Shown here: positions 30,431-40,669 of the stretch, one piece after another
Layout: each line of letters begins with the position of its first letter
Numbering within the stretch: position 1 is the first letter of the stretch
Assembly: GCF_001577775.1 (NCBI RefSeq)
Contig: NZ_CP010835.1
Location: 1,364,001-1,428,000, forward strand
Direction of reading: 5' to 3'
Length of the DNA stretch: 64,000 bases
From: Pyrococcus kukulkanii
GTDB taxonomy: Archaea > Methanobacteriota_B > Thermococci > Thermococcales > Thermococcaceae
Translations under genes and position numbers: made by a program
Notes under the pieces: model-generated
Seen by the model: the letters and a program-made list of their open reading frames with translations, nothing else
Database searches by the model: none
Told to the model about the DNA's origin: nothing

Positions 30431-31192
30431 TCAAATCTTTCGGGCAAACGTTATGTATCCAGTGTGAGCAAGAATTGTAGTGGTGGGCCTCATGCACTCC
30501 TTCTTTACCTCTTGCTCGAATATTACTACATCAATAGTTCTAGGCTTCATGAAAACGTCCTTGAACTCCCTAAGTTTTTCTCTAAGCCTTATCACCTGAT
30601 TAGCGCAGGGAGTGTAGGCAACGAAGAATCCTCCTGGCTTTAATGCTTTTGCTGCATGCTCCACAACCCTTTCTGGTTGGGGCAGGTCTAGGATTACATG
30701 ATCAACGTTCTCCTCGTCTATTCCCTCGTAAATGTCCTTCAGCTTTATCGTAACTCGATCGTCAAAACCTGCCCACTTTATGTTCTCCCAGGCAAGCTTT
30801 GCAAAATCCTCCCTTATTTCGTAGCTGACTATCTTTCCCTGGGACCCCACTATGTTTGCTAGGAATAAAGTTAAAGCCCCACTTCCTACTCCAGCTTCCA
30901 CTATGAAATCCCCTGGGGAAATCCCAGCGTATGCAACTATTAATGCAGCATCCTTAGGGTGAACTATTTGGGGGCCTCTCTTCATTTTATCTAGGTAATC
31001 TACTATCCTGGGCTTTAGAATTTTGAACTCATGCCCTTTGTGGCTCTTTATTGATTCTCCGTACTCCTTGCCAATTATCTCCTCCAGCTTTAATATCCCC
31101 AGATCGGTGTGGAAGTCCCTATCTTGAACGGTGACTAAATACCTTTTTCCCCTTGGGTCAACGAGAACTACTTTCTCTCCTTCCTTAATCAT
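30431..31192 (-). CDS. trmI: tRNA (adenine-57/58-N1)-methyltransferase TrmI
   Basis: Archaeal TrmI forms m1A57/58 in the T-loop, a thermostability modification. 253 residues: N-terminal beta domain (VVLVDPRGKRYLVTV), FHTDLGILKLEEIIG, GPQIVHPKDAALIVAYAG, SAM motif I VEAGVGSGALT, and VILDLPQPERVVEHAAKALKPGG (visible as LDLPQPE). Highly similar to the P. abyssi enzyme, but with clear differences from the sequence I remember. Its start overlaps the stop of the DUF257 gene. Confidence 0.95.
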   Translation of the reverse strand: MIKEGEKVVLVDPRGKRYLVTVQDRDFHTDLGILKLEEIIGKEYGESIKSHKGHEFKILKPRIVDYLDKMKRGPQIVHPKDAALIVAYAGISPGDFIVEAGVGSGALTLFLANIVGSQGKIVSYEIREDFAKLAWENIKWAGFDDRVTIKLKDIYEGIDEENVDHVILDLPQPERVVEHAAKALKPGGFFVAYTPCANQVIRLREKLREFKDVFMKPRTIDVVIFEQEVKKECMRPTTTILAHTGYITFARKI

Positions 31193-31803
31193 CCTTTCTT
31201 CACCAGAATTCCCTTGTTTGAGGCATATATTACCAATGGACTTATCTCTTCCAAGGCTGCAACGCTCTTTTCAGGGGCTAGATCCAAGTTCAGGAGGTAT
31301 ATTGAGGTCCAGTCCTCTATTGGCAAAACACTCCTACTTAGCAGAATCGTCTCCAGAGCCCTCTCCCCTCCAAAGTACAAGTATTCGGCAAGTCCTACCG
31401 TGATAAATATCACCCTTTTAGATGACTTAGCAAGTATCTCTCTTATCCCTGGGTAATATAGTTTGATGAATTCAGATAGGTCATACGTGAGGGGTATCTC
31501 TTCGACTATTTCGCTGTAACTAATTTTCCCGGGCCCAATTTTAACTGCCTTAACGTTCCCCACTATGCTCTCCATTACCCTTTTGTACTTTTCCGGGGAG
31601 ACTCTTCTTATGTACGTCCTGAAAAGTATGTCCCCCACGCCAAAAAAATCATCTATGACGACCTCGAATTCCTTAATGAAACTCATGACTAGGTTATCCC
31701 AAAGAAGTTCATGAGCAGGGAACGTGCTTGGGTATTCTATTATCGCTATGTCCCCATTCTTTATTTCATCTATGATCATTTTAGCTATGATATCATGTTC
31801 CAT
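31189..31803 (-). CDS. DUF257 (KaiC-like fold) protein, operon with trmI
   Basis: 204 residues of a Thermococcales-specific family (DUF257): DIAIIEYPSTFPAHELLWDNLVM is the first strand and helix, where a RecA/KaiC ATPase would have a P-loop, but no GxxxxGK[ST] is present; RVIFITVGLAEYLYFG and IYLLNLDLAPEKS are the later strands. It is therefore a likely non-ATPase relative of KaiC. It overlaps trmI by 4 bp. Two related proteins flank the chemoreceptor at 35-38 kb. Confidence 0.72.
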   Translation of the reverse strand: MEHDIIAKMIIDEIKNGDIAIIEYPSTFPAHELLWDNLVMSFIKEFEVVIDDFFGVGDILFRTYIRRVSPEKYKRVMESIVGNVKAVKIGPGKISYSEIVEEIPLTYDLSEFIKLYYPGIREILAKSSKRVIFITVGLAEYLYFGGERALETILLSRSVLPIEDWTSIYLLNLDLAPEKSVAALEEISPLVIYASNKGILVKKG

Positions 31804-34262: not shown

Positions 34263-34407
34263 ACCGGTGTGTTAGAGAATTTGCCAAGGTGTGCAACCAA
34301 ATGTTTATAAATTATTTCTGTTATAAAATTGTTATAAAATTTACACGAAAAAGACGATTTTTAAAGATAAAATTTAAAAAACTAAAAAAAATTTGCAAAG
34401 AGGGAAA

Positions 34408-34821
34408 ATGAAAGGGGAAGTTATACTTGACGTTCAGAGGTTGCTCTCCCTTACGGATGAAGAAGTAGTGGAAGCTGTTAGGAAACTAAGGGGTAGGGTT
34501 AGATGTCCCTATTGTGGATCCTCGGAGATTGTCAAGATAGGATTCATAAAGAGACATAATGGACTTGGAATTCGGAGGTTCAAGTGCAAGAATTGTGGAA
34601 GAACATTTAACGAGCTGGATGGAACTCCTTTAAGCGGTGTTCATTCACTGAGGCGAATAGTACTCATAGCATACTTTGCATTGTACTTGAAATTTACCCC
34701 CTCGACTATTATGGCGATAGTTGACTTGAAGTATCCAACTGTCGTTAGATTGTACAGAAAGGTTACTGAGAATAAGGAATTTTTCAATGAATTGTTGGAA
34801 TTATTACTAAATGAACAATAA
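34408..34821 (+). CDS. Transposase-like zinc-ribbon/HTH protein without catalytic domain
   Basis: 137 residues. C4 zinc ribbon CPYCGSSEIVKIG...FKCKNCGRTF at about residues 30-65, then a helical part with a helix-turn-helix (STIMAIVDLKYPTVVRLYRKVTE). This is the N-terminal part of IS1/IS1595-type transposases, but no DDE domain follows within 290 bp, so it is either a truncated transposase or a domesticated regulator. ATG 34408 follows GAGGG. Base composition here and in the flanks is more AT-rich than neighbours. Confidence 0.6.
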   Translation: MKGEVILDVQRLLSLTDEEVVEAVRKLRGRVRCPYCGSSEIVKIGFIKRHNGLGIRRFKCKNCGRTFNELDGTPLSGVHSLRRIVLIAYFALYLKFTPSTIMAIVDLKYPTVVRLYRKVTENKEFFNELLELLLNEQ

Positions 34822-35111
34822 GCCCTATATAATTTCTAAATTTGTTTATTTTGATATTTAGTTTGAAAATCGCACTTCATAATGCGTTAATATGGAACTA
34901 TTTTGTACATTTTTCTGAAATAGAGTATTAACTTGATAGCTATTTTGATAGCTATATCCCCGTTATCAACAAATTTTGTTAGTCTTGGACATTTGTTGTA
35001 AATATCAATAAAAAGTGTAACATTTCGTCATAAAAATTTTGAACAAAAATGCACACAAAACTTAAAATTCTCGAATGAGTGTTATATTATGTGACAGGTG
35101 GTGAGGTAGCC
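34822..35111 (+). promoter_or_regulatory. AT-rich 290-bp intergenic region with tandem repeat before the chemoreceptor operon
   Basis: Mostly A/T. Contains two head-to-tail copies of TTGATAGCTATT/A at 34933-34956, each with the palindrome TAGCTA, spaced 12 bp. TATA-like CTTAAAATT near 35060 and GTTATATTA at 35081-35089 precede the ribosome-binding GGTGGTGAGG. The repeats are candidate operator sites. No RNA gene is evident. Confidence 0.45.
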
Positions 35112-35774
35112 ATGGAGATATCGGATGTGCTCGAAAAGGAAAAGATAAGCGTATTGGTAGAATATACATCCGAGGATGTACTTGGCCCAACGGTGTTTAC
35201 AATACTGCAGAGAATTATAGAAAAGTACGGAGAGAGGGCTTTGGTCATAATTACGGACTTCCTTGACACCCTCCCTATATATAAGTATCAAGCAGAGCTC
35301 TTGGGTATGAAAACGGATTTAATAGACAACGTTCCAGTGATAAAGGTCGGTGGAAAGATCAGCGTTGGTAATGTACTTCACAAGATTCCGATCTCAGCAT
35401 ACCCGGTGTATAAAACCCTGTACGAGGAAGCCTTAGGGAAGCTGTTGGACAACGTGAGACATCACAACGGTTTCTACGTAAATATGCAACTTGGAATAGA
35501 GAATATAATGAACATATTTGATAAGAAAGAGCTTATCGAACAGGTTCACGATATTGGGGAATACGTTGTGACGAAGAGCAAAGATATTAGGGATATCGTT
35601 TTCGTTAACACTGATTCGATGAAGAACGTTTCTCTTCAAGTGATTTCAATGCTGAAGATGATCTTTCCAATAGTTTTGAAGCTAACAAATGATGGAAAGT
35701 CCTTTGTTGTGAGTAAAAGCGTTTTTCCAAGCCTTAAAGGAAGTAGTGGTACAATATGGGAGGTGAAGGAGTAA
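35112..35774 (+). CDS. DUF257/KaiC-like degenerate protein upstream of the chemoreceptor
   Basis: 220 residues: ISVLVEYTSEDVLGPTVFTILQRII parallels the DUF257 protein at 31.2 kb, with a RecA-like strand but no Walker A. LVIITDFLDTLPIYKYQAELLG and VFVNTDSMKNVSLQVISMLK are further strands. No membrane span. ATG 35112 follows GGTGGTGAGG. Its stop abuts the chemoreceptor ATG (TAAATG), so the two are co-translated. Confidence 0.68.
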   Translation: MEISDVLEKEKISVLVEYTSEDVLGPTVFTILQRIIEKYGERALVIITDFLDTLPIYKYQAELLGMKTDLIDNVPVIKVGGKISVGNVLHKIPISAYPVYKTLYEEALGKLLDNVRHHNGFYVNMQLGIENIMNIFDKKELIEQVHDIGEYVVTKSKDIRDIVFVNTDSMKNVSLQVISMLKMIFPIVLKLTNDGKSFVVSKSVFPSLKGSSGTIWEVKE

Positions 35775-37280
35775 ATGGAGTTCAAGAGGAAACTTACGCT
35801 TTCAATATTCCTTCCCTTAATCTTGGTCGTTGTTACGGCAATAGTAATCGAGAACATCGCTATCTCTGACCTTTACGATAACTTAGCGAAGACAATGGAG
35901 ATAGTAAGGTCAGGAGGTTCAGTGGAGGCCATACAGTCGAGCATGAGTTCGGCCTTATCCCAACTAAAGAAAACCTTATGGATTAGCATAGGGGCCATGG
36001 CTGCAGTTGCAGCAGGTTCAGGGGTGGTAGCGTATGGATTAATGAAATCAGCACTTGATCCTGTAAGCAAGATGGCAAGAGTTGCAGAGAATATAGCTCA
36101 GGGAAGATTGAGTAAGGCTAGGCAGATGATCAGGGAAATTAGGTATGAGGAGAGCGATGAGATAGGAAAGCTCCTTGAGGCATTTAAATCAATATCTCAG
36201 GATGTCCTTAGGACGCTTGAAGTAATAACAGAGAGAATGGAGAAGATAGCTGAAGGAGATGTAAGAGACGATATAACCTTGCATGCTAAGGGTGACTTTG
36301 AGAGTATACTTAATTCAATGAGGAAAACGATAACACAACTAAGAACTCTAATGAAAACCGTAAAGGATCTTGCCCTAACGCTTGAGAAGAGGGCTGATGA
36401 GTTGACTAGGATTGCCTCAGAAATCACGGAGGCAGTAAATCAGGTGGCCGAGGCAATTCAGCAGGTTAGCACTGAAGCCCAGAGGCAACAGGAGAACATA
36501 AGCATGATAATGGATGGGATGAACATTACCGCCGATGTAACTCAGAAGACAGTAGATACCATGGAGGAGTTTAGTGGAGTAGTCAATGAAGTAATATCGA
36601 TAGCTAGGGAAGGCAAAGAAAAAGGTGAGAAGGCAATAACCCAAGTGGGAGACATTCAGGAGGCTATGAAAGTCATTAGGGACGCGGTTCAAGAAGTAGC
36701 CGAGATGAGTAAGAACGTTGGTGAGATAATAAACACGATAGCTGATATAGCCGAGCAAACAAACCTCTTAGCATTGAATGCTGCTATAGAAGCTGCTAGA
36801 GCAGGCGAACTTGGAAGAGGTTTTGCCGTTGTAGCCCAGGAAGTTAGGAATTTAGCTGAAGAAAGCAAGGATGCAGCCGAGAGAATAAGGTCGATTCTTA
36901 GGGAGATACAGGAGAAAGTGGAGAGGGCCGTTGAGGAGACAGAAAGGGGGGTTAAGATCGTGGATAATTCCGTGGACTTTCTGAAGGAGACAGTCAGCTA
37001 CCTAATGAATATTGGAGAACTGCTAGATGATGTGGAGGAGAGGCTTAGTGCCGTTAAGTCAGAAATCGCCAACACCCAGGAGCATGTTGAGAATGCTAAG
37101 AAAGCCCTTGAGAACTTGGCGGCAAGTGCAGAAGAGATGACCGCCAGTGCCCAGGAAGTTAGTGCAAGCGCTGAGGAGCAGGCCTCATCCCTAGAGGAAG
37201 TAAAGAGGAACATAATCGATCTCAGGAACATAGTCAAGGAGCTCAGGAAGGCCATTGACTTCATAAAAGTTGAGGGGTGA
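35775..37280 (+). CDS. Methyl-accepting chemotaxis protein
   Basis: 501 residues. TM1 about residues 8-30, an unusually short external loop (about 36 residues), and TM2 about 67-90 ([21 protein letters not shown]). HAMP at about 93-150 and a second HAMP-like segment ([14 protein letters not shown]) follow, then a coiled-coil signalling domain whose hairpin tip reads [21 protein letters not shown] at about 325 (seen as [15 protein letters not shown]). With no room for a ligand domain outside, it may sense membrane or cytoplasmic state, or receive signals from the flanking KaiC-like proteins. It signals to CheA/CheW encoded elsewhere. Confidence 0.93.
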
Positions 37281-37286
37281 ATTATA

Positions 37287-38069
37287 TTGGATGTTGAGTT
37301 TTTCTCTCCCCTTCCCATTGATATTGAAGAAATTGATAAGGCGATTGGAGGGGGTTTGGTCAGGGGAGCAACGATATCGATAATGTACGATGCGTTCTCC
37401 CTGGGATGGGCGCTTGGTTTTGAGATCTTTAAGAACATGTTATTTAAGGACTCTTTTGGAGTAATTCACAATTACAGTCTTCCCGTAATAAAGTTAATTT
37501 CCAGGGCATCCTTCGTTGGCCTTAATGTGCAGAGATTAGCTAAGAGCGAGAGGAGGGTTAAGATAATAGATGTATTTGGGTCGAAGTACGAAATTCCTCC
37601 TTACGATGACTACGTCCTCACGATACCTAACCCGACAGAGGAGACGTTAAACCCTAAGATAGAATGGTTATATGAGGATAAGATTTATCCCGTGGCGGGT
37701 GAGAAGAGGATAGTGAAACTCATTCACACTCTCGATGGCGTCGTCACGTTATTTGGTGAGAACGCTACAATAAAATTGCTAAACTCAGAAGTGGCGTATT
37801 TAGCGAAGATGTACAGGAAGAGGAATATAATCTCGATAGTACTACTAAACGTTGATGTGGTCTCGAGGAAGTTCGTTGCCTGGGTTTCTGGTTTGAGTGA
37901 CGTGGTCATACTATTTAACTCAAGGATTGGGGATGGTGAGCTGATTGAGACTATGAGCATTCTCAAGTCGCCAAATCCAGACTTTGAACCGAGTACCTAT
38001 GAGTTTAAAGTAGCTGCCAATAATGGAACCCACTCACTCTCCTTTAAGAAGTCAGAGGGGACTGGATAA
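37287..38069 (+). CDS. KaiC-like protein with degenerate Walker A, downstream of the chemoreceptor
   Basis: 260 residues. EEIDKAIGGGLVRGATISIMYDAFSLGWALG aligns with the KaiC start LD-x-x-L-GGG-x-x-G...GxxGxGKT, but the P-loop has become YDAFSLGWA (seen as IGGGLVRGATISI, YDAFSLGW), so nucleotide binding is doubtful. IVLLNVDVVSRKFVAWVSGLSDVVILF is the later KaiC strand region. TTG 37287 follows GAGGGGTGA, 6 bp after the chemoreceptor stop. Third member of the operon. Confidence 0.68.
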   Translation: MDVEFFSPLPIDIEEIDKAIGGGLVRGATISIMYDAFSLGWALGFEIFKNMLFKDSFGVIHNYSLPVIKLISRASFVGLNVQRLAKSERRVKIIDVFGSKYEIPPYDDYVLTIPNPTEETLNPKIEWLYEDKIYPVAGEKRIVKLIHTLDGVVTLFGENATIKLLNSEVAYLAKMYRKRNIISIVLLNVDVVSRKFVAWVSGLSDVVILFNSRIGDGELIETMSILKSPNPDFEPSTYEFKVAANNGTHSLSFKKSEGTG

Positions 38070-38104
38070 CCTTTTTATTTCCTTTGTCTAATTCTCTCAA
38101 CGTT

Positions 38105-39064
38105 ATGAAGGCAATCGAAGTAAGGAACCTAAAGAAGCTTTACCCGAAAAAGATCCCTCTCCCCTTCAGAAAGGTTGAATGGTTTGAAGCATTGAAGGGG
38201 ATAAGCTTTACCGTCAAAAAGGGAGAGTTATTCGGCTTGTTAGGGCCTAACGGTGCAGGTAAAACAACGACAATAAAAATCCTCACTACCTTGCTTGAGC
38301 CAACCTCCGGCGAGGCCAAGGTTTTAGGCCACGATGTGATTAGGGAGGCAGGAGAAGTAAGGAGAAAGATAAACCTTGTTGCCGAGGGCGAGAGAACCCT
38401 TTACTGGAGGCTTACAGCTTACGAAAACTTGAGATACTTTGCCAGCATCTATTACGTCCCGAAGCGCGAGGCCGAGAGGAGGATTGAAGAGCTCCTCAAG
38501 ATGGTGGGCCTGTGGGAGAGAAGGAATGATCTCGTCATGAACTACTCGAGAGGTATGAAACAGCGCTTAGCTATAGCCAAGGCCTTAATCAATGATCCGG
38601 AGGTTCTCTTTCTGGATGAACCGACTTTAGGTTTGGACGTTCAGAGCGCGATATTCGTTAGGGAGCTCGTTAAAAGGCTCGTTGAGGACGAGGGCAAGAC
38701 CGTTTTATTAACGACTCACTACATGCACGAAGCTGAAGAGCTTTGCGACAGGATAGCGATAATAGATCACGGGAAGATAATAGCACTAGACACTCCTGAG
38801 GGCCTGAAGAAGCTCGTCAAAGATGAGACGATAGTTGAAGTCAGGGTGAGAAACTACCCTGGGGACAATCCGTTTGGGTTAGCTAAGGTGTCTTCTGAGG
38901 AAAATGGGATCACGGTTCTGAGGGGTAGCCTCGATGAGGAAGATATCCCTAAGCTAGTTGAGTTCCTCGTTAAGAGAAACGCCAAGGTTCTCTCGGTCGA
39001 AGTTAAGGAGCCTACCCTTGAGGACGTTTTCATAAAGCTCACGGGGAGGGGGCTGAGGGATTGA
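38105..39064 (+). CDS. ABC-2 type exporter, ATP-binding protein
   Basis: 319-residue ATPase of the DrrA/CcmA class: Walker A GPNGAGKTT, Q-loop region INLVAEGERTLYWR, signature YSRGMKQRLAIAKAL, Walker B VLFLDEPTLGLD, switch His TTHYMHEA. A C-terminal DUF4162-like domain (IVEVRVRN...LEDVFIKLTGRGL) is typical. ATG 38105 chosen over earlier in-frame ATG 38084. Its stop overlaps the TTG of the first permease. Cargo unknown (lipid, antibiotic or polymer). Confidence 0.93.
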   Translation: MKAIEVRNLKKLYPKKIPLPFRKVEWFEALKGISFTVKKGELFGLLGPNGAGKTTTIKILTTLLEPTSGEAKVLGHDVIREAGEVRRKINLVAEGERTLYWRLTAYENLRYFASIYYVPKREAERRIEELLKMVGLWERRNDLVMNYSRGMKQRLAIAKALINDPEVLFLDEPTLGLDVQSAIFVRELVKRLVEDEGKTVLLTTHYMHEAEELCDRIAIIDHGKIIALDTPEGLKKLVKDETIVEVRVRNYPGDNPFGLAKVSSEENGITVLRGSLDEEDIPKLVEFLVKRNAKVLSVEVKEPTLEDVFIKLTGRGLRD

Positions 39065-39864
39065 GCATACTCGCGATAATTGATAAGGAGTTCAGAATGT
39101 TCTTCCGCTATCCTCTGAGAGTTATCAGTTCCCTGTTAGTTGGTATAGTCTTCCTAGTTCAGTTCATATACTTCGGTCAAGCCATCCTTGGGGGTAGATT
39201 CTCTTCCCTCCTTCAAGCTTCGACGGGTGTGGGTGATTACCCGACGTACGTTCTCATAGGCTATACCCTATGGTGGGTCTCCGTTTCGCCGATGGAGGCA
39301 TCAGTATGGGGGATAAGGAGGGAGCTTCAGAGGGGAACGTTCGAGAGCAACGTTGCATCTCCCACCGGGATATTGAAGATGATTCTGGGCCTTGCCATAG
39401 CCTGGATGCTCATGGATTCTGTCCTAATGCTTGCCGTATTTGTGTTTGGTGTTTTAGCCTTTCACATACCGATAAGCCTAACTGCAGTGATTAAGGTAAC
39501 TCCAGTTCTATTTCTCTCGTTCTTGGCCTTCCTGGGCTTCGGCTTAATGTTCTCCGGGCTAGTTATGATGCTCAAGAACATAGGTCCCCTAGCTAATATC
39601 CTCGAGTTCGCTATCCTCTTCCTCTCTGGAGTTTTCTTCCCCCTCTCTACCCTGCCCCAGGATGTAAGGGCTATCTCTTCTCTAATTCCACTAACCCACG
39701 CGACAAACGCCATCAGAAAGCTTTTCCTTGGCTATACGTACTCCGCAGTCTTTCATGAGATAAAGTGGATGCTCATCTTAATCCCGCTGTACTGGGCGGT
39801 AAGCTTGATCATATTTAAGTGGGCGGAGAGAATAACGAGGATGATGGGGTATGGAGGCTACTGA
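39061..39864 (+). CDS. ABC-2 type permease, first
   Basis: 267 residues with six hydrophobic segments and the ABC-2 signature region EFAILFLSGVFFPLSTLPQDVRAISSLIPLTHATNAIR (seen as LFLSGVFFPLSTLP). TTG start overlapping the ATPase stop. It forms the exporter channel with the following, similar permease. Confidence 0.9.
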   Translation: MSILAIIDKEFRMFFRYPLRVISSLLVGIVFLVQFIYFGQAILGGRFSSLLQASTGVGDYPTYVLIGYTLWWVSVSPMEASVWGIRRELQRGTFESNVASPTGILKMILGLAIAWMLMDSVLMLAVFVFGVLAFHIPISLTAVIKVTPVLFLSFLAFLGFGLMFSGLVMMLKNIGPLANILEFAILFLSGVFFPLSTLPQDVRAISSLIPLTHATNAIRKLFLGYTYSAVFHEIKWMLILIPLYWAVSLIIFKWAERITRMMGYGGY

Positions 39865-40669
39865 GCTTAGAGCATTAATGGGCGTTGCGAGGAAGAGCTG
39901 GAAGGTGTTCGTGAGCTACAAAGTATGGTTTGTCAGCGATATAGCGATGGGACTCTTTTTCGTAGCGAACGCCCTGCTGATAGGCTTAGGTCTCACAGGG
40001 AAGAGAACCTCTGAGGCATTAGCAAAGCTCACTGGTTACTCCGACTACCTGACGTTTGCCGTCTTAGGTTTTATGGTTCTGGCGTTTGGCCTCACGTTTA
40101 TGAGTGGCTTCGTGTGGAGCATAGTTGATGAGCTATATGCTGGAACCCTTGAGTACTCATTTGCCGCCCCGATGAGGAGGATAACCTTCTTCCTGGGGAA
40201 CGTCTTAGTTAGGCTAGCTTTAAACTTCCTGTACCTTGCTATTTACGTTCCACTCTTTTATTTTATCTTTGACTTAACCTTAAGCTTTTCTGGCTTGTTG
40301 AAGGGACTTTTGGTTCTCCTTCTCGGCTCTGTTGGCATGATAGGTCTCGGCATGGCTGTAGCTGGAATAGTGCTTTACCTAAAGGACCCTGGGCCCTTCA
40401 TAAACGTTATGGAGATGCTTGTCTTTGCGCTCAGCGGTGCCATGTATCCAGTGGAAATTTTGCCGGACCCACTTAGACTTTTGGCACTAGTTCTTCCGTA
40501 TGCCCCAACCACAGAGGCCGTGAGGAGTGTGGTTGCTCATGGATTAGCTGAAAGTTTGGACAAAATAGCTTATTTAATAGTGATATCCCTTGCGTATGCC
40601 ATTTTGGGATATTTGGGGTATAAGTGGAGCGAGAAGAGGGCAAGGGAAGTAGGTCTAAAGAGCTACTAA
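39851..40669 (+). CDS. ABC-2 type permease, second
   Basis: 272 residues, six membrane segments; [38 protein letters not shown] (seen as [14 protein letters not shown]) is the ABC-2 signature. Overlaps the first permease by 14 bp; the pair likely makes a heterodimer. The stop overlaps the convergent sugar kinase gene by 4 bp. Confidence 0.9.

Follow-up and report, generated by a model that had tools for sequence, protein, structure and literature searches.

The window analysed here, a stretch of 64,000 nucleotides from the genome of Pyrococcus kukulkanii (G000; 1.98 Mb, one contig), carries an operon at 35112-38069 in which a DUF257 protein, a chemoreceptor (MCP) and a KaiC-fold protein at 37287-38069, labelled KAI throughout, are encoded in that order on the + strand with near-zero spacing, and this make-up suggests a receptor that is fed from inside the cell. 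That the operon specifies a split chemoreceptor, receiving a cytoplasmic signal through DUF257 and KAI, is a reading to which we would give slightly under an even chance. Its more specific form is put forward tentatively: the KaiC-fold proteins, as a homologous pair, may act as a cytoplasmic sensory head on the membrane MCP, the onetime ATP site (YDxxSxxW) having been rebuilt to take a metabolite or peptide. The genes and elements of concern are the following.

31189-31803, - strand: second DUF257 protein, a paralog outside the operon that overlaps the trmI start (PF03192, E 1e-7).
34393-34821, + strand: zinc-ribbon and helix-turn-helix (HTH) protein, 142 aa, a candidate for control of operon transcription (weak zinc-ribbon Pfam matches, co-occurrence).
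34968-34980, no strand assigned: AACAAATTTTGTT, palindrome-like element, a possible operator offered as a lead only (sequence reading; part-conserved in the Pyrococcus intergenic alignment).
35061-35069, + strand: CTTAAAATT, putative BRE/TATA-like promoter element about 43 nt upstream of the DUF257 start (conservation in the Pyrococcus alignment).
35112-35774, + strand: DUF257 protein, 220 aa, without Walker A, a predicted divergent and inactivated KaiC-like protein (PF03192; relative 2ekd; homology to the KAI family).
35775-37280, + strand: MCP, 501 aa (Pfam, hydropathy, ortholog alignment).
36753-36809, + strand: receptor hairpin tip, 19 residues, nearly invariant in 13 aligned orthologs.
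37287-38069, + strand: KAI, predicted KaiC/RecA-fold pseudo-ATPase, 260 aa (AlphaFold and Foldseek).
37386-37409, + strand: YDAFSLGW in the place of the Walker A P-loop, family motif YDxxSxxW (47-member census; alignment with KaiC GATGTGKT).

The stop codon of the DUF257 gene abuts the MCP start codon, and the MCP stop is followed after 6 nt by the TTG start of KAI; the first-pass annotation of this DNA had the coordinates, the reading frames, the TAAATG junction and the 6-bp gap right. It also identified the three genes correctly, and overlooked a fourth conserved gene upstream, that of the zinc-ribbon/HTH protein at 34393-34821. The HTH part of this protein was recognised by reading the sequence, and its zinc-ribbon matches are weak and of transposase and transcription factor types, the best (PF12760, Zn_ribbon_IS1595, E 5e-5) lying just below the cut-off. 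At E<1e-20 the gene occurs in 16 of 16 genomes with the operon DUF257 versus none of 78 others, always upstream and on the same strand, with two copies in five Thermococcus genomes. Position and domain type make its product the likely transcription regulator of the operon. The downstream ABC transporter (38084-40669) was considered as a further part of the operon and rejected, as it adjoins in Pyrococcus and not in Thermococcus or in G051, a genome taken up below. A DUF257-MCP fusion in Thermococcus, suggested by apparent frames of about 700 aa, was likewise dismissed: a TGA stop and one codon lie between the genes. A search for RNA elements gave no Rfam match.

The KAI protein is central to the proposal. 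Structure prediction, which the first-pass annotation had named as a check, gave for KAI a model with pLDDT 90.4 and a KaiC/RecA fold, for which the best Foldseek match is 3bs4 (PH0321; E 1e-15; TM 0.76/0.80), followed by 2w0m and KaiC (query TM about 0.73). By sequence the resemblance is fainter, the window protein matching Pfam KaiC (PF06745) with E 0.07 and 13.0 bits, under the cut-off of 26.6, and 10 of 28 relatives matching at E<0.01 (best 3e-6); PH0321 is recovered as a homolog with E 1e-18 using a wider profile. Among the named Pfam families of inactivated KaiC (iKaiC) domains, DUF835 and MEDS, no match was found for the window KAI, and MEDS was found in one of the 28 relatives (E 0.0017). 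In alignment with KaiC in the PDB, YDAFSLGW falls in register with GATGTGKT. Across a census of 47 non-redundant family members the column of the Walker Lys holds G, A, I or S and never K (0/47), the Thr column has 45 W and 2 Q, and the Ser at motif position 5 is present in all 47; the Y, D, S and W of the motif are almost invariant. The catalytic Glu pair that follows beta 2 in KaiC (YEES) has become Y(S/N)LP. An earlier description of the P-loop as degenerate (YDAFSLGWA) is borne out by the missing Lys in 47/47. From these alignments KAI is a predicted pseudo-ATPase in which a new conserved motif occupies the old nucleotide site, and the change at its P-loop, as read from the same columns, is not random decay; that the motif is invariant instead of drifting suggests that the site was selected for a new use. 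The crystal structure of PH0321 is titled as a complex with an unknown peptide, which fits a binding role for KAI relatives.

It could be argued that KAI or DUF257 is no pseudo-enzyme and binds or hydrolyses nucleotides through a non-standard site, and the retention of a Walker-B-like Asp (TLDG) in 44/47 KAI members is in keeping with this. With the Lys and Thr of Walker A absent throughout the 47-member alignment, and the catalytic Glu pair with them, we regard such an activity as highly improbable.

The DUF257 protein of the operon is a clear member of its family (PF03192; E 4e-21, 76.2 bits against a cut-off of 25), and its solved relative is PH0250 (2ekd; E 3e-13). PH0250 and PH0321, structures from Pyrococcus that are both uncharacterised, are distant paralogs of the operon proteins, and PH0321 differs in keeping a more P-loop-like stretch, EEDASSRGKD. 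A literature search on DUF257 or PH0321 returned nothing relevant. The AlphaFold model of the window DUF257 has a pLDDT of 35, too low for use, and its relationship to KAI was approached through profiles. Shallow alignments gave no profile signal and were superseded by deeper ones of 47 (KAI) and 30 (DUF257) sequences, in which hhalign aligned 207 collinear columns with a probability of 95-97% and a score of 59.3, against at most 20.8 for 30 column-shuffled controls, 14.7 for a reversed profile and 14.0 for the MCP profile. We conclude from the profile comparison that DUF257 and KAI are distant homologs. This homology supports the description of the pair as two KaiC-like pseudo-ATPases, a claim of the first-pass annotation that has fared well, both proteins appearing inactivated by sequence and related to each other. 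The same annotation had pointed to a further relative beside trmI and to an expanded family; the gene at 31189-31803 is such a DUF257 gene, one of nine in this genome. Tandem DUF257 pairs are frequent: among the 140 DUF257 genes of 16 genomes, 62 lie within 300 bp of another family member. A general pairing of KAI with DUF257 outside the operon was looked for and rejected, since the 62 KAI and 140 DUF257 genes of 16 genomes yield one further close pair, about what chance would give.

The receptor itself is conventional in its signalling parts. The Pfam MCPsignal domain (PF00015) is matched with E 3e-42 (144.8 bits against a cut-off of 34.6) along with two HAMP matches, and the architecture runs from TM1 (residues 3-35) and TM2 (67-90) through HAMP (89-139) and HAMP_2 (134-188) to MCPsignal (277-423). 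The hairpin tip, the CheA/CheW contact region in known MCPs, is nearly invariant in 13 aligned orthologs, including one from a genome without CheA, so that transmembrane helices, HAMP and a conserved tip are all present. By hydropathy, about 32-36 residues between the hydrophobic segments lie outside the membrane, and in Thermococcus orthologs the loop has some 20-25 residues; because it is short in both, the absence of an extracellular sensor is conserved. The minimal extracellular domain reported previously is therefore real, but it is not remarkable for this genome, in which one of five MCPs (L002, dCache) has a recognised extracellular sensor. Of the others, L003 is a membrane MCP with MCPsignal as its sole Pfam domain, and L001 and L005 look soluble. 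The che set of the genome comprises CheW domains in two proteins, a CheA dimerisation domain and CheY/CheB-type receivers.

A search of 94 Thermococcales genomes found the operon DUF257 in 16, namely all nine of Pyrococcus (g1, the genus of the close relatives), six of Thermococcus (g2) and one of g5, the genus labels resting on gene content and on relatives. Fifteen of the 94 keep the order DUF257-MCP-KAI, usually with few or zero bases between genes, although the units are not all whole. A frameshift breaks KAI in G029 and an insertion interrupts the MCP in G053, each in a genome with a full che set, which indicates that the unit is dispensable and tells against a split receptor; G037 has an altered KAI C-terminus, and in G080 the contig ends within KAI. 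The insertion in G053 (L103:6372-7912) holds a TnpB-like ORF of 436 aa and a small ORF of 82 aa. Between the window genome and G028, dN/dS is 0.05 for DUF257, 0.04 for the MCP and 0.06 for KAI, and the operon genes are under purifying selection. Taken with the recurrence of the order in 15 genomes, this argues that the arrangement is not due to chance. A lack of conserved linkage with MCP genes, which the first-pass annotation had named as evidence against its proposal, was looked for, and linkage was found to be kept in those 15. The operon KAI sequences form one clade with support of 100/99, separate from many paralogs, and every member found lies in the operon, so a single lineage joined the MCP and has been retained there.

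These patterns of linkage bear on whether the KaiC-like pair and the receptor act together at all. The two might have separate outputs, the pair forming a transcription or archaellum regulatory unit whose only tie to the MCP is a shared transcript under one HTH regulator. Both families are common in Thermococcales genomes without any MCP, so that most of their members do not serve chemoreceptors, and some KAI paralogs are encoded 4 nt behind genes for TBP-interacting proteins or beside a FilR1-like regulator. In G097, moreover, the HTH gene and DUF257 are kept, the MCP and KAI are absent downstream (L165:8235-9580) and the gene after DUF257 presumably encodes a MarC-like membrane protein; DUF257 may thus have a role of its own. 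Against separate outputs, all KAI of the operon clade lie in the operon, G097 lost the MCP and KAI as a pair, the two decay jointly in G059, and near-zero intergenic gaps favour stoichiometric partners. On balance this reading seems rather improbable, with the abundance of both families in MCP-less genomes still counting against a split receptor.

The connection to the chemotaxis pathway is drawn from the genomes that have lost it. CheA/CheW domains are found in 14 of 15 operon carriers, counted without correction for shared ancestry. In G059, where CheW, CheA, response regulators and archaellins were not found, the operon is ruined, with the DUF257 gene gone, an MCP remnant of 93 codons and a frameshifted KAI remnant. 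The same four components were not found in G051 (one contig, 99% complete), in which the operon MCP is the sole MCP of the genome, all three reading frames (DUF257, MCP, KAI) remain open and the hairpin tip shows no change; here (L110) the MCP gene has an intact ribosome site followed by ATA in place of ATG, and the HTH gene carries a frameshift. The ruin in G059 and incipient decay in G051 point to a unit that works through CheA and decays after the loss of che genes, and they suggest that the operon may need the che pathway. The persistence of intact DUF257 and KAI in G051 although the pathway is absent counts against a split receptor, and could be read as the sign of a CheA-independent signalling unit in which receptor and pseudo-ATPases act outside chemotaxis. 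Such a function, considered from G051 alone, was set back by the ATA start and the HTH frameshift, which bespeak a recent loss, and with the operon ruined in G059 and che genes present in all other tested carriers we consider it very unlikely.

One plausible scheme for a split receptor is as follows. The MCP would be the membrane-anchored output part, with two transmembrane helices, tandem HAMP domains and a hairpin predicted to bind CheA/CheW, and, having no extracellular ligand domain, it would take its signal from the cytoplasmic side. DUF257 and KAI may bind the receptor beside which they are translated, or may bind one another. A small ligand from the cytoplasm, or some other protein, would dock in the former nucleotide/P-loop site (YDxxSxxW in KAI), and docking would alter the contact between pseudo-ATPase and receptor and so bias CheA. 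Transcription of the unit is probably controlled by the zinc-ribbon/HTH protein. What we infer in this scheme, the input step included, is complex formation, the direction of signalling, the ligand and the part played by the regulator; the recurrent gene order, the operon KAI clade, the invariant new motif and the CheA/CheW domains of most carriers speak for it. The pseudo-ATPases might instead be adaptors or scaffolds of the array, concerned with placement, packing or adaptation, while the membrane part of the MCP senses proton motive force, membrane state or temperature. A receptor built of transmembrane helices and tandem HAMP domains, lacking any ligand domain, could respond directly to membrane state, oligomers are common among KaiC-fold proteins, and the linkage data fit equally well; a strictly conserved new motif at the old nucleotide site is left unexplained, and we judge this role unlikely.

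For a split receptor there are two kinds of precedent. Inactivated KaiC domains (DUF835, MEDS) have been catalogued in signalling proteins of archaea (Galperin et al., 2018; PMC5847659), and KAI shares with them the KaiC fold, the loss of the ATPase site, Walker A included, and a setting among signal transduction genes. Those domains are fused to REC, whereas here a stand-alone pair flanks an MCP, belongs to other Pfam families and carries the new YDxxSxxW motif. In Treponema the oxygen sensor ODP is genetically coupled to an MCP that has no sensor of its own (the ODP/MCP pair TDE2498/TDE2496; PMC7666581), and the window genome has an ODP-MCP gene pair as well (L005), a likeness that lies in a sensor-less receptor with a neighbouring gene for the input protein, gene coupling being what is seen here; the cases differ in that the ODP input is a diiron metallo-lactamase fold, its receptor is soluble and it has one partner rather than two. 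Inactivated KaiC in archaeal signalling and receptors with separate sensor proteins are therefore already known. KAI also has its fold and topology in common with KaiC and SSO2452. KaiC, ArlH and SSO2452 are active RecA-like ATPases with Walker A; KAI, unlike these, has lost the Lys, the Thr and the catalytic Glu pair. To our knowledge the combination of two homologous pseudo-ATPases with an MCP and a dedicated regulator is undescribed, the 2017 work on KaiC-like hubs lying outside this comparison. Inactivated KaiC-like proteins are numerous in archaeal genomes; a role as signalling hubs has been suggested for them, firm connections to a particular pathway are few, and an operon that joins two of them to an MCP offers a direct test of function in an order with genetics and taxis assays. 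A split receptor, if true, would be the second case after ODP of a chemoreceptor with a separate cytoplasmic sensor protein, and a KaiC-fold sensory head, if true, would connect the KaiC-like signalling network of archaea with the CheA pathway, which is of bacterial type.

Paralogs at other loci merit mention in their own right. At L134:5277-6726 a KAI paralog with YDAYSSAW lies 4 nt behind the gene of a TBP-interacting protein (TBPIP), with a similar gene at the Thermococcus loci L117, L119, L125, L127, L128, L130, L132, L139 and L144; in loci of this type a pseudo-KaiC adjoins a basal transcription regulator. Another KAI paralog clade, with SFSLGW, is encoded beside a FilR1-like HTH regulator gene (L118:846-4399, and L120, L122, L126, L131, L141 and L145), and these loci also encode a large protein that matches no Pfam family. 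In the window genome, finally, an ODP-family metallo-beta-lactamase gene (PF19583, E 6e-72) stands directly before the gene of a soluble 260-aa MCP at L005:467-2019 (G000:C1, about 150516-152068), and by its domains this locus is a predicted ODP/MCP oxygen-receptor pair.
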